Part shown: positions 10,219-64,000 of the stretch, in pieces
Numbering within the stretch: the first letter of the stretch is position 1
Layout of the letters: the number at the start of each line of letters is the position of its first letter
Source: Bacteroidaceae bacterium
Lineage (GTDB): Bacteria; Bacteroidota; Bacteroidia; Bacteroidales; Bacteroidaceae
DNA: 64,000 bases
Reading direction: 5' to 3'
Assembly: GCA_017507385.1 (NCBI GenBank)
Contig: JAFWAX010000077.1
Coordinates: forward strand, 62,001 to 126,000
Notes under the pieces: generated by a model
The model's input: only the letters and a program-made list of their open reading frames with translations
Told to the model about the DNA's origin: nothing
Databases searched by the model: none
Made by a program: the position numbers and the translations under genes

Positions 10219-10285
10219 ATCGATGTGCCCCACATCGATTTAGCGGAGTGCCCCACATCAAAATGTCGATGTGGGGCACTCCGCT
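10219..10285. repeat. 23-nt triad repeat, CCCCAC family, copy 1
   Basis: Three units start at 10221, 10244 and 10267, exactly 23 nt apart. Units 1 and 2 carry GTGCCCCACAT and unit 3 carries the inverse ATGTGGGGCAC. Unit 2 (10242-10258) pairs perfectly over 17 bp with unit 3 (10269-10285). Unit 1 can instead pair over 14 bp with unit 3 (10225-10238 with 10266-10279), and unit 1 is also a palindrome in itself. It lies between hisB and the tRNA cluster. Confidence 0.9.
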
Positions 10286-10386
10286 ATTGAGAGTTTTCAG
10301 CATTGTCTATATAAAGAAAAAATGTATCAGGAATCTCACTACCTCTGATACATGAATGCTATGAAAAAACGAATGTCTAAATGATG

Positions 10387-10459
10387 AGCGGAAAACGAGA
10401 CTCGAACTCGCGACCCCAACCTTGGCAAGGTTGTGCTCTACCAACTGAGCTATTTCCGC
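10387..10459 (-). tRNA. tRNA-Gly (GCC), copy 3 of the cluster
   Basis: A 73-nt cloverleaf on the minus strand. The acceptor stem GCGGAAA/TTTCCGC, D-arm AGCTCAGTTGGTAGAGC, anticodon loop TTGCCAA and T-loop GTTCGAGTC are all visible. The 3' CCA is not encoded. It is identical in sequence to the copies at 10533 and 10848. Confidence 0.97.
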
Positions 10460-10532
10460 ACAACACGATTCTTATTTTCGCAAACAGGAATCGCCAAAAA
10501 AATCCCTTAATTTATTATGAACCATTATTTTG

Positions 10533-10605
10533 AGCGGAAAACGAGACTCGAACTCGCGACCCCAACCTTGGCAAGGTTGTGCTCTACCAACTGAGCTATT
10601 TCCGC
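10533..10605 (-). tRNA. tRNA-Gly (GCC), copy 2 of the cluster
   Basis: A 73-nt cloverleaf, identical to the copies at 10387 and 10848, with anticodon loop TTGCCAA. It is separated from the next Gly gene by 73 nt without other features. Confidence 0.97.
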
Positions 10606-10653
10606 AATATTGTATTTATGATAAGAACTCGCGCTGGAGTCTTAAGGGTTGAG

Positions 10654-10735
10654 TGAAGAGGATGAGACTCGAACTCACACGGGCTGAGCCCACTACCCCC
10701 TCAAAGTAGCGCGTCTACCATTCCGCCACCTCTCC
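10654..10735 (-). tRNA. tRNA-Leu (GAG)
   Basis: An 82-nt class II tRNA. The acceptor is GGAGAGG/CCTCTTC with one G-T pair, and the anticodon stem CTACT/GGTAG encloses loop TTGAGGG, giving anticodon GAG. A variable arm (GGGCTCAGCCC region) and T-loop TTCGAGT follow. No CCA is encoded. Confidence 0.95.
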
Positions 10736-10748
10736 ATTCTATACGGAG

Positions 10749-10829
10749 TGCCCACGACAAGAATCGAACTTGCACGTCTCTCAACACTCGCACCTGAAAC
10801 GAGCGCGTCTACCATTCCGCCACGTGGGC
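10749..10829 (-). tRNA. tRNA-Leu (CAG)
   Basis: An 81-nt class II tRNA. The acceptor GCCCACG/CGTGGGC is fully paired. Anticodon stem CTCGT/GCGAG encloses TTCAGGT, giving CAG. It has a long variable arm, T-loop TTCGATT and no encoded CCA. The spacer to the next Leu gene is only 13 nt. Confidence 0.95.
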
Positions 10830-10847
10830 CTTGTCTGATGACTTTTG

Positions 10848-10920
10848 AGCGGAAAACGAGACTCGAACTCGCGACCCCAACCTTGGCAAGGTTGTGCTCT
10901 ACCAACTGAGCTATTTCCGC
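10848..10920 (-). tRNA. tRNA-Gly (GCC), first gene of the cluster
   Basis: A 73-nt cloverleaf, identical to the other two Gly genes. It is the promoter-proximal gene of the minus-strand cluster Gly-Leu(CAG)-Leu(GAG)-Gly-Gly and lies about 75 nt after the predicted start of transcription. Confidence 0.97.
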
Positions 10921-10998
10921 AACTTTCGCTTAAGTTTGATAAGTCAATCTGTATTGCTTTTTCGGCAGGAATTTGTGTTCCCTTCCCGATTGCGAGTG

Positions 10999-11029
10999 CA
11001 AAGGTAGCATTTTTTCTCGAACTGGCAAA
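10999..11029 (-). promoter_or_regulatory. Promoter of the tRNA cluster
   Basis: On the minus strand TTTG (11029-11026), 19 nt, TACCTTTG (11006-10999), an exact Bacteroidota consensus. Spacing between the genes (13-73 nt) suggests one transcript for all five tRNAs. Confidence 0.85.
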
Positions 11030-61875: not shown

Positions 61876-61898
61876 TCTTCCGTCGTTAGATTATAATT

Positions 61899-61928
61899 CA
61901 AGGGCATTCCTTCGGGAGTGCCCTTTTC
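61899..61928 (+). terminator. Terminator of gapA
   Basis: AAGGGCA (61900-61906) pairs with TGCCCTT (61919-61925), with inner TCC/GGA around a TTCG tetraloop, then T residues. A strong intrinsic terminator. Confidence 0.93.
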
Positions 61929-62056
61929 GTTTTCTCTTCCCTCGCCATTTCCTCTCAGTAAATACATAGGCGAGGACTAAATTTGCGAGCAGGAGGTAAA
62001 GCGTCCGAAGATTATGTGAGAGCAGGGCGTTGAAGAGGGGAAAAAGGCAAAAACCC

Positions 62057-62087
62057 TTTGTTTTGTGCACACTTATTCGTACCTTTG
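62057..62087 (+). promoter_or_regulatory. Promoter of the ABC-F gene
   Basis: TTTG (62057-62060), 19 nt, TACCTTTG (62080-62087); the gene starts at 62124. Confidence 0.87.
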
Positions 62088-62123
62088 TATCCAAATAGTA
62101 AATAGTTAATAAGTAAAGAAAAG

Positions 62124-63734
62124 ATGATTACAGTTTCAGACCTTGCCGTACAGTTTGGCAAGCGAGTTCTCTACAAAGATGTCAACATGAAGTTCACCAA
62201 CGGCAATATCTATGGAGTCATAGGCGCCAATGGTGCAGGAAAATCCACGCTGCTCAAAGCCATCAGCGGTGAACTGGAGCCGACAAAGGGTACAATCACG
62301 CTCGGACCGGGCGAACGCCTGTCTGTCCTTTCGCAGGATCACTACAAGTTCGATCACTGCACCGTGCTCAACACGGTGATGATGGGGCACTCGGTGCTAT
62401 GGGACATCATGCAGGAGAAAGATGCGCTCTACGCAAAGTCCGACTTCAGCGATGAAGACGGCATCCGCGCAGCAGAGCTGGAAGAAAAGTTCGCCGAGCT
62501 TGACGGATGGAACGCAGAGAGTGATGCAGCGCAGCTTCTCTCAGGACTGGGCATTAAAGAAGACCTGCACTACAAGCTCATGTCAGAGCTGACAGGTAAA
62601 GAGAAAGTGCGCGTCATGCTGGCACAGGCACTTTACGGAAACCCAGACAACCTGCTGCTCGACGAGCCTACCAATGACCTCGACCTCGAAACCGTCGAGT
62701 GGCTCGAAGACTTCCTTGCAAACTTTGAGCATACGGTGCTTGTCGTGAGCCACGACCGCCATTTCCTTGACGCTGTCAGCACACACACGGTTGATATCGA
62801 CTACAACAAGGTCAACCTCTTTGCCGGCAACTACTCCTTCTGGTATGAGTCATCGCAGCTAGCTCTCAAGCAGGCGCAGAATCAGAAAGCCAAGGCCGAC
62901 GAGAAGCGCCGTGAGCTTGAAGAGTTCATCCGCCGTTTTTCTGCCAATGCGGCAAAGAGCAAGCAGACAACTTCACGAAAGAAGATGCTCGAAAAGCTTA
63001 ATGTAGATGAGATTCTCCCATCCACACGCAAATACCCCGGCATCATCTTCAGCATGGAGCGCGAAGCTGGAAACCAGATACTTGAAGTAGAAGGCCTGAC
63101 AGCCATCGAAGATGATGGAACCGTACTCTTCAAGGACCTGAACTTCACCGTCGAGAAAGGCGAGAAAGTTGTTTTCCTCTCCCACAACCCGCGTGCGATG
63201 ACCGCCCTCTTCGAAATCATCAACGGCAACCGCGAGCCACAGGCTGGAACCTACAAGTGGGGCGTTACCATCACTACTGCCTATCTCCCTGTTGACAACA
63301 CCGAATTCTTCCAGAGCGAGAAGAACCTCATCGAATGGCTCAGCCAGTATGGCGAAGGCAACGACGTCTTCTTCAAAGGCTACCTCGGCCGCATGCTCTT
63401 TAGTGGCGAAGAAGTGCTGAAGAAAGTCAACGTTCTTTCTGGAGGCGAGAAGATGCGATGCATGATAGCGCGTATGCAGCTCAAGAACGCCAACTGCCTC
63501 GTACTCGACACGCCAACCAACCACCTCGACCTCGAGTCCATTCAGGCATTCAACAATAACCTCAAGCAGTTCAAGGGCAATGTCCTTTTTGCGTCCCACG
63601 ACCATGAGTTCATCCAGACCGTAGCCAACCGCATCATCGAGCTCGGTCCTAAAGGTCATATCGACAAGCTCATGCAGTACGACGACTATATTCACAGCGA
63701 CGATATCAAGGAGCTGCGCGGCAAAATCTATTGA
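62124..63734 (+). CDS. ABC-F ATPase, YbiT/YkpA-like, with one degenerate ATP site
   Basis: A 536-residue protein with two ATPase domains and no membrane part. Domain 1 has Walker [10 protein letters not shown] (34-42) and Walker [12 protein letters not shown], but its signature reads LTGKEK (about 155-160). Domain 2 has an intact signature LSGGEK (about 438-443) and Walker [12 protein letters not shown], but its Walker A position reads [12 protein letters not shown] (about 350-361), lacking GK[ST]. One composite ATP site is thus canonical (Walker A 1 with signature 2) and the other degenerate. ABC-F proteins bind the ribosomal E site to regulate or rescue translation. The canonical linker is present ([19 protein letters not shown]). 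Confidence 0.92.
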
Positions 63735-63765
63735 TAGCGTTTCGCTTTCACACGCTATATACACA

Positions 63766-63814
63766 AACAAACAGGAGCCCGTCGGTAAGATAAGCTGGCG
63801 GGCTCCTGTTTGTT
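63766..63814 (+). terminator. Terminator of the ABC-F gene
   Basis: AACAAACAGGAGCCCG (63766-63781) pairs perfectly over 16 bp with CGGGCTCCTGTTTGTT (63799-63814). Confidence 0.93.
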
Positions 63815-63839
63815 ACATTTGGGGCAGGTGAAAATCTTG

Positions 63840-63912
63840 AAAATCGGTGTGCCCCACAACGGCATGGCGATGTGCCCCACATCGATGAGTCGGTGTGGGG
63901 CACACCGATTTT
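63840..63912. repeat. 23-nt triad repeat, CCCCAC family, copy 3
   Basis: Cores start at 63845, 63868 and 63891, 23 nt apart. Unit 1 (63840-63858) forms a perfect 19-bp stem with unit 3 (63894-63912). Unit 2 (63872-63881) can pair over 10 bp with the same unit 3. Confidence 0.92.
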
Positions 63913-63938
63913 ATAGTGATTGCTGTGCCCTTGCTGCG

Positions 63939-64000
63939 TTGCATCTTTTATCGTGATTACGTTGTACCCTTCATCGTAATTACGTTGGTTCTTTCATCGT
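63939..64000. repeat. 23-nt period repeat of the ATCGTAATTACG family, cut by the window edge
   Basis: Unit A 63939-63961, unit B 63962-63984 and a third unit starting at 63985 and leaving the window. Units share TTCATCGTAATTACG-type ends and belong to the family at 37749 and 57605. An inverted unit, if present, would be outside the window. Confidence 0.8.

Follow-up and report, generated by a model that had tools for sequence, protein, structure and literature searches.

Palindromic repeat triads in a 23-nt register hold their intergenic sites while their cores differ between related Bacteroidaceae species

The window analysed here, a stretch of 64,000 nucleotides from a Bacteroidaceae bacterium (assembly GCA_017507385.1, contig JAFWAX010000077.1, positions 62,001 to 126,000), carries dispersed intergenic arrays of short palindromes, usually three units in a 23-nt register, for which an earlier note on the same DNA had listed eight sets of unit starts; all eight are present when the sequence is read directly (Table 1). 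We find that in two species of the genus such arrays occupy the same positions between alignable flanks and yet carry different cores, in support of the note's supposition that the architecture itself is maintained. We consider it probable that the arrays are short non-autonomous mobile elements, which behave like repetitive extragenic palindromes (REPs) and their inverted doublets (REPINs), are moved by a transposase resembling the REP-associated tyrosine transposases (RAYTs), and have new cores sweeping through their sites.

Each unit is a 17-nt imperfect palindrome (7-nt arm, 3-nt centre, 7-nt arm), and a 6-nt spacer completes the period of 23; because the units are themselves palindromic, whether a third unit counts as inverted is determined by its 3-nt centre. 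When the window was scanned without regard to core for a direct pair of 12-mers and an inverted third, at spacings of 14 to 59, five of the eight sets were recovered with 23-nt and one with 24-nt spacing, with extra sites at 59931 (24 nt) and 19312 (32 nt), while five Markov controls gave 0, 0, 0, 1 and 1 sites; the two 'ACGATG-CCCT' sets (37749 and 57618) are spaced by 23 nt by eye and are too degenerate to pass. The scan was extended to 464 kb of this 2.38-Mb genome (78% complete), comprising the window and 20 stretches of 20 kb (400 kb) on contigs found by a first search with family F1 (families in Table 1), a choice that biases density and not spacing. Here direct-direct-inverted triplets fell at 23 nt 18 times, at 24 nt three times and at four other spacings once each; inverted-direct-direct ones at 23 nt 17 times and at three others once each; and all-direct ones at 23 nt five times, at 24 nt twice and elsewhere five times, with some elements falling in two orientation classes and some low scorers being chance. 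The corresponding Markov control gave 1 in total. A core-blind test for three equally spaced 7+n+7 palindromes returned 22 arrays at n = 3, of which 21 have the 23-nt spacing (control 0), and just 1-4 arrays each at n = 0, 1, 2, 4 and 5. The 23-nt spacing is not due to chance, and the spacing measured in the earlier note, with 24 nt in a fourth family, is borne out by a genome search of the kind that it had proposed; congeneric species share the identical triad architecture with other cores.

Three is the usual number of units. Among 85 arrays with at least two, taken from this sample and from 60 array loci of three relatives (G013, G014 and G036), 69 have three units, nine have four, six have two and one has seven. 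The third unit is inverted in 46 of the 69 three-unit arrays (21 all direct, two unresolved), the share being 20/21 in this genome (F1 and F2 three-unit arrays), 13/15 in G036, 9/19 in G013 and 4/14 in G014, so that the inverted third unit, held to be general in the note, stands for this genome and only partly for the four together. The 55 distinct triads from all loci divide into 40 with one end unit inverted, 10 all direct, two with the middle unit inverted and three mixed (p 1.6e-4 against a random 26/13/13 of 52, with copies that are not independent).

The fate of the cores was followed by fetching the surroundings of arrays (20 stretches from G014, 20 from G036 and 39 from G013) and aligning their flanks. 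Both flanks align between G013 and G036 at 15 arrays, involving 14 of the 20 G036 stretches; two further pairs were dropped from this count, L331/L302 (33-40 aligned bases) and L319/L310. At 11 of the 15, G013 has F9 and G036 has F8 in the same position, with flank identities of 77 to 98%, and an F4/F6 swap between G007 and G019 likewise lies within flanks that are 96-97% identical. The other four carry F8 in both species and fall in three blocks, two of them 1.3 kb apart in one block, one of these two being matched via G013 contig C49; because their flanks are 97-100% identical, against 77-98% at the other aligned sites, these blocks are probably recently exchanged DNA that brought the donor's core along.

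The spacers bear on how a core is exchanged. In seven swapped three-unit pairs they agree at 6, 6, 8, 9, 7, 7 and 4 of 12 positions, and the arms at 39, 37, 38, 39, 42, 34 and 35 of 42, compared with 6.6 (standard deviation 1.9) of 12 and 36.5 (2.6) of 42 in 281 unrelated F9 x F8 pairs from the same two genomes; three same-core orthologous pairs agree at 11, 10 and 12 of 12, with arms at 41 of 42. L339/L304, with two units in register and spacers at 8 of 12, was left out of this comparison. Since the spacers of swapped arrays agree no better than those of unrelated copies, the arrays look replaced en bloc rather than edited. Unit number and orientation also alter (three versus four units in L324/L293), the differing stretch stops within about ten bases of the array edges, and arrays also occur where relatives have none. 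One G013 array, L334, has six units in a single 23-nt register, three F9 followed in tandem by three F8, and its F8 half has odd letters in common with the G036 array at that site; the old triad seems to be still present with the new one beside it.

A candidate for the mobilising enzyme is encoded in the same genome. Pfam PF01797 gave no match there, which at first seemed a refutation; across 45 genus genomes it matched in 20 (14 above its cut-off), and the weak match of a relative, used as query, then recovered the family in 37 of the 45, including contig C46 of this genome. The RAYT-like gene which the earlier note had suggested looking for thus exists, and an array lies near it in nine genomes; both facts support its reading of a REP-like palindromic family of several sequence types. 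Its product has 347 amino acids with a long C-terminal part and the motifs PDHLH (HUH) and YLHNNP (catalytic tyrosine), and scores E 3.8e-13 and 49.6 bits against NCBIfam NF047646 'REP-associated tyrosine transposase' (cut-off 80) and E 0.016 against PF01797; by its motifs it is RAYT-like at superfamily level, lying under the NF047646 equivalog cut-off. The HUH and Y..NP residues do not vary among 28 aligned members, which is no independent proof as members were chosen by these motifs; R195, L182 and G223 are nearly as constant and free of that selection bias. The gene run reads glycerate kinase, ComEA-like, RAYT, and a probable short-chain dehydrogenase (the last by eye).

In nine genomes (G000, which is that of the window, G007, G013, G014, G017, G025, G036, G003 and G068) a 23-nt array lies inside this glycerate kinase gene, in frame, at the same place and between common flanking codons, 1.5 kb upstream of RAYT in eight and about 0.7 kb in G007; the glycerate kinases of G002 and G035 were read and are present without the array. 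The core of this array is F1 in two genomes, F9 in two and F8 in five, and it is the commonest of the three genome-wide in 8/9 (permutation 3 of 756; exception G068), as counted in exact F1, F9 and F8 units with reversed-pattern controls of 0 or 1 in each genome. Clade B taken alone gives 6/7 (permutation 3 of 21), and G003 (F8) and G014 (F9) are sisters (support 88/81). Some F8 units of G013 are double-counted, contig C49 being 100% identical to part of C21 over 3,188 bases (L345, L347), by duplication or redundant assembly.

Several further features of RAYT loci were recorded. Arrays spaced by 22 nt occur at up to 1.5 kb from other Y1/RAYT-like genes of the genus (L139, L143, L147, L163, L196), and array period may go with transposase class. 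In the RAYT orthologues L174, L187 and L200 the HUH-to-Y distance is 110 residues, 22 longer than the 88 found elsewhere; in L187 the extra stretch holds a direct-direct-inverted 24-nt repeat, and RAYT frames in L226, L227, L232, L236 and L237 also contain 24-nt repeats. Outside the genus, 29 loci of RAYT relatives (five near full-length) had three arrays spaced by 19 or 21 nt and none spaced by 22-24 nt; the flanks covered were 1.5 kb, a length at which even locus L241 of this genome does not show its array.

These data are consistent with a model where the element is a compact group of 17-nt palindromes able to form hairpins, most often three in a 23-nt register, typically made up of an inverted neighbour pair and one more direct unit, with several families ending close to CCTCAAAA...TTTTGAGG. 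The units would most likely be recognised as single-stranded hairpins and then cut and copied by the RAYT-like HUH/tyrosine transposase of the same genome; new triads would favour sites already occupied by a triad and enter in register with it, and the resident units would be lost afterwards, presumably in that order, so that a new core would sweep the genome and leave sites and architecture unchanged. Transcript ends may be affected as well. In function, REP-RAYT biology is matched by the hairpin units, the inverted neighbours, the HUH-Y transposase, the dispersed cores that follow the array near it, and the minority copies carrying other cores. We rate as an even call the stronger proposition of a genome-wide, site-preserving core sweep, in which whole new triads enter or adjoin resident ones in the 23-nt register at most occupied sites and displace them. 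Mobility would then reside in the triad, older arrays would serve as its targets, and each species' set of 'core alleles' would give way to another in a concerted fashion, with genomic addresses and architecture passed on by inheritance.

A number of observations weigh against mobilisation and sweep. L319/L310 has F9 in both species next to DNA that cannot be aligned; in L336/L298 all 42 arm positions are identical, which fits editing of centres and spacers equally; and L334 is the sole mixed array seen. The RAYT tree is not sorted by core type (G014, with F9, pairs with G035, which has zero F9 units), G023 (99% complete) has F6 arrays and no RAYT match, and F2, F4 and F5 of this 78% complete genome are without an assigned RAYT. 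G002 has 54 F8 units though its glycerate kinase is array-free, and G064, G011 and G010 have 55, 37 and 22 (glycerate kinase was read in other genomes). The F1 versus F8/F9 contrast tracks host clades, a partial confounding, and the 1.5-kb gap to RAYT in 8/9 genomes exceeds the approximately 1 kb at which canonical REPs flank RAYT. RAYT genes at large show no clear excess of arrays nearby (6 in 58.9 kb at up to 1.5 kb from the gene, 21 in 217.6 kb farther away), hence our reliance on the conserved glycerate-kinase site. Finally, the GT[AG]G foot fails (GTAG in 2, GTGG in 1 and CGTC in 0 of 524 six-base unit flanks), as does the inverted doublet, the REPIN or bacterial interspersed mosaic element (BIME), as basic unit, since 69/85 arrays have three units and six have two, an inverted neighbour pair being contained in 46 of the 69; we use the label REP-like rather than canonical REP for these two reasons.

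Part of the same evidence would suit gene conversion or recombination among dispersed arrays, which would homogenise the core without a transposase and make the RAYT neighbour coincidental. The dominance of one core type in each genome, the incongruent RAYT tree and the F8-rich G002 with no glycerate kinase array all fit; at 63-85 bp the arrays are small for homologous conversion, and neither the abrupt end of the difference near the array edges nor the arrays that turn up where relatives have none is expected, so that we hold this explanation to be unlikely. We give somewhat less credence to cooperative operator arrays, in which three 17-bp dyad sites would be bound by a DNA-binding protein whose specificity shifts between species while selection makes the sites follow. 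Lambda operators have a site spacing of 23-24 bp, and palindromic 17-bp units at fixed spacing, one dominant core per genome, site positions common to species and a swapped pair with identical arms could all be read in this way. Spacers replaced along with centres speak against such slow co-evolution of binding sites, being as different in swapped arrays as in unrelated copies, as do changes in unit number or orientation, the tandem F9+F8 array, the varying presence of arrays across species (e.g. at hisB) and the scarcity of elements between divergent genes.

The latter was seen on placing the 31 elements of this genome's sample (three at stretch ends left out) with a home-made gene caller of density 0.86, which replaced a weaker one of density 0.75. 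Nine of the 28 placed elements lie between convergent genes, 17 between tandem genes, two between divergent genes and none inside genes; relative to intergenic DNA length, convergent positions are enriched (p 0.002) and divergent ones depleted (p 0.003), and elements lie at a median of 100 bp from a 3' end and 217 bp from a 5' end. This 3'-side preference favours an account in which bidirectional terminators, RNA-stability hairpins or a bistable RNA switch multiplied through usefulness at gene ends, as do the terminator-like hairpins seen by eye in several relatives at the hisB 3' site where this genome has an array. Array presence at hisB varies among species, and this site, considered as a conserved location with different cores, was not counted as positions differ.

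Folding points the same way. In RNA folding of the six clear window elements, a long stem joins the inverted unit to a direct one (a U1 hairpin followed by a U2:U3 stem in element 10219, U1:U3 around the middle unit in the other five), with predicted energies of -40 to -54 kcal/mol for 69-85 nt and long GC-rich stems with A/T ends. Arms of direct and inverted units covary in F1 (n=23; l2-r3 z 6.6, r1-l3 3.3, l1-r3 3.2) where the three self pairs do not, with l1-l3, a same-side pair unable to pair, still at 2.3; F2 (n=9) is less clear (l2-r3 3.8, self pair l2-r2 3.5) and F8 (n=7) weaker than F1, all z values being inflated by the shared ancestry of non-independent copies. An early idea of arm pairing in the pattern 1-4, 2-5, 3-6 failed. 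The mutually exclusive stems of the earlier note thus exist on paper and have F1 covariation behind them, F2 being less clear, and no result here singles out either the bistable switch or the protein-binding array that it had offered. One hairpin would suffice for termination, not three in a 23-nt register, and the dispersed sequence families and the in-frame glycerate kinase copy point to mobility; multiplication through usefulness at gene ends is in our view as doubtful as operator arrays, while a terminator role as a side effect is compatible with mobile REP-like elements.

The families (Table 1) are related to unequal degrees: F1, F9 and F8 differ mutually by one flipped stem pair and an altered 3-nt centre, for which the earlier description of completely different cores is too strong. 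F2 gives 79 match rows in this genome, many being both strands of one place. F5 triads (L013:9984, L025:13338 and others) are spaced by 23 nt with a CATAATATTATG centre and CACCG arms, the L013 copy being by eye a nearly perfect 76-bp palindrome. An F1 search of 61 genomes (37 of the genus) found matches in 10, every one within the genus. When 84,980 species, one genome each and possibly excluding the window's own, were scanned for a pair of exact F1 units spaced by 23 nt, ten stretches were found, in six metagenome-assembled genomes titled Bacteroidales, Bacteroidaceae or Prevotellaceae; two name rumen or reticulum, and three have RUG names, which we take to mean rumen origin. F2-like arrays occur with a GTC centre at L219:14782 (G034) and with an asymmetric CGTACCCCTCGACTACG at L235:9233 (G003) and L237:1717 (G068), in both about 3.2 kb from a RAYT-like frame of 439-445 amino acids, and 23-nt direct tandem repeats (CTCACAAGTTTGTCAGTTTTTA) at L076:8231 and 9657 in a genome from another family of the order. 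The window also holds three direct 23-nt repeats of a different core and identical period (GAAGCGGYGTC..., 17585-17661) about 150 bp from an F2 triad, arrays of a 14-nt unit GACAACGGACAACG (33874-33924, 34242-34402, 36663-36755), and three 32-nt repeats TTTCTTTGCAAAGAAAC... (19312-19407) immediately ahead of an open frame. An Rfam search of the window at gathering score matched five tRNAs and nothing else, so that the arrays are no known Rfam RNA family.

Table 1. Repeat arrays of the window, array pairs compared between species, core families, and exact unit counts in genomes with a glycerate kinase array
Feature	Position, loci or source	Strand	Detail
F1 triad, between hisB and tRNA cluster	10221..10283, units 10221/10244/10267	.	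CGATGTG-CCC-CACATCG type, third unit inverted; read + scan
F2 triad	17807..17869, units 17807/17830/17853	.	CGTACCC-CTC-GGGTACG type; read + scan + palindrome test
F4 triad, 24-nt spacing	35796..35858	.	GGTGAG-AGT-CTCACC type; outer ends CCTCAAAA...TTTTGAGG; units 1 and 3 pair over 25 bp (by eye + folding); read + scan
F3 triad, degenerate, 23-nt spacing	37749..37812	.	CGATACA-AGG-TGTATCG type; by eye, under scan threshold
F2 triad	44714..44776, units 44714/44737/44760	.	read + scan + palindrome test
F1 triad	51988..52050, units 51988/52011/52034	.	outer ends AAAAACGG...CCGTTTTT; read + scan + palindrome test
F3 triad, degenerate	57618..57674	.	by eye, under scan threshold
F1 triad	63845..63907, units 63845/63868/63891	.	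read + scan + palindrome test
F3-type 23-nt direct repeats (CGTAATTACG)	63937..64000, running on beyond window end	.	all-direct array in L109
Swapped pairs G013/G036	L323/L301, L314/L307, L315/L292, L324/L293, L328/L297, L332/L300, L334/L295, L336/L298, L339/L304, L344/L306, L337/L299		L323/L301 in glycerate kinase; L334/L295 mixed in G013
Same-core F8 pairs G013/G036	L202/L305, L346/L303, L345 or duplicate L347 with L294		last entry: two arrays of one block
F1	this genome		CGGTGTG-CCC-CACACCG
F2	this genome		CGTACCC-CTC-GGGTACG
F3, degenerate	this genome		CGATGCA-GGG-TGCATCG
F4, 24 nt	this genome		AGGTGAG-AGT-CTCACCT
F5	this genome		with CATAATATTATG
F6	relatives		CGGTGTG-AGT-CACACCG
F7	relatives		CGGACTG-GAG-CAGTCCG
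F8	relatives		CGACATC-GTC-GACATCG
F9	relatives		CGATGTC-CCC-GATGTCG
Array core F1	G000		F1/F9/F8 units 55/0/0
Array core F1	G007		F1/F9/F8 units 85/0/0
Array core F9	G013		F1/F9/F8 units 0/82/15
Array core F9	G014		F1/F9/F8 units 0/51/1
Array core F8	G025		F1/F9/F8 units 3/1/44
Array core F8	G036		F1/F9/F8 units 0/8/48
Array core F8	G003		F1/F9/F8 units 24/0/48
Array core F8	G017		F1/F9/F8 units 1/0/45
Array core F8	G068		F1/F9/F8 units 3/18/11

The findings bear on how REP-type repeats, which are widespread in bacteria, spread and why their sequence classes diversify. The two close species offer a frozen series, with constant sites, different cores and one site carrying both triads, and an array in frame within a metabolic gene has a core matching the genome-wide type; the 23-nt three-unit architecture outlives its own sequence. 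The system opens to experiment the copying of a repeat by its domesticated transposase, the possible role of existing copies as the target, and the concerted evolution of a dispersed family.

The literature searched, a limited selection in partial texts, holds no description of these repeats, of 23-nt triads as the usual form, or of whole-array swaps at the same dispersed sites. The closest likeness is to REP/REPIN elements with RAYT (TnpAREP), described in the passages at hand (PMC3116915) as short palindromic extragenic repeats in many copies, with inverted pairs giving long hairpins and a clustering beside the RAYT gene; the copies seen here are likewise numerous, palindromic and extragenic (55 exact F1 units, 0/28 in genes), while the GTAG foot is missing (3/524 flanks) and, in the same source, REP doublets are in excess and triplets rarer than expected. 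In the available parts of Nunvar et al. 2013 (PMC3686654), REP classes differ at orthologous RAYT loci ('orthogroups') of Pseudomonas and Stenotrophomonas, REP abundance depends on the cognate RAYT, and leftover copies persist where RAYT is absent; the variation of repeat class next to syntenic RAYT genes in related strains, the abundance and the leftover copies resemble our observations, unlike class swaps at the same dispersed intergenic sites and mixed tandem arrays, of which those passages make no mention. TnpAREP subclass 2.6, equivalent to RAYT group 5 and mostly from Bacteroidetes, has, close to the gene, 'atypical secondary structures' that lack GT[AG]G, and copies elsewhere in the genome, according to the excerpts of PMC6006769; its motifs NH[LIV]H and YIH[QN]NP and 179-residue profile differ from the PDHLH, YLHNNP and 347 residues found here. 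The Stenotrophomonas maltophilia group-3 REP, as portrayed in the portions seen of PMC8266576, has an 8-bp palindrome, a 3-nt loop and 23 nt in all, with GTAG mutations largely tolerated for binding; it is GTAG-tagged, and those portions hold no triads in a 23-nt register. The BrickBuilt miniature inverted-repeat transposable element of Porphyromonas gingivalis (PMC4596501, likewise consulted in part) shares the 23-nt repeat period, intergenic position and the order Bacteroidales, and is a head-to-tail minisatellite within IS5-type terminal repeats GAGACCTTTGCA, whereas by inspection the arrays here end near CCTCAAAA...TTTTGAGG. Set beside these systems, a usual form of three units in a 23-nt register, and the exchange of entire arrays at shared dispersed sites, are new as far as this limited search shows.

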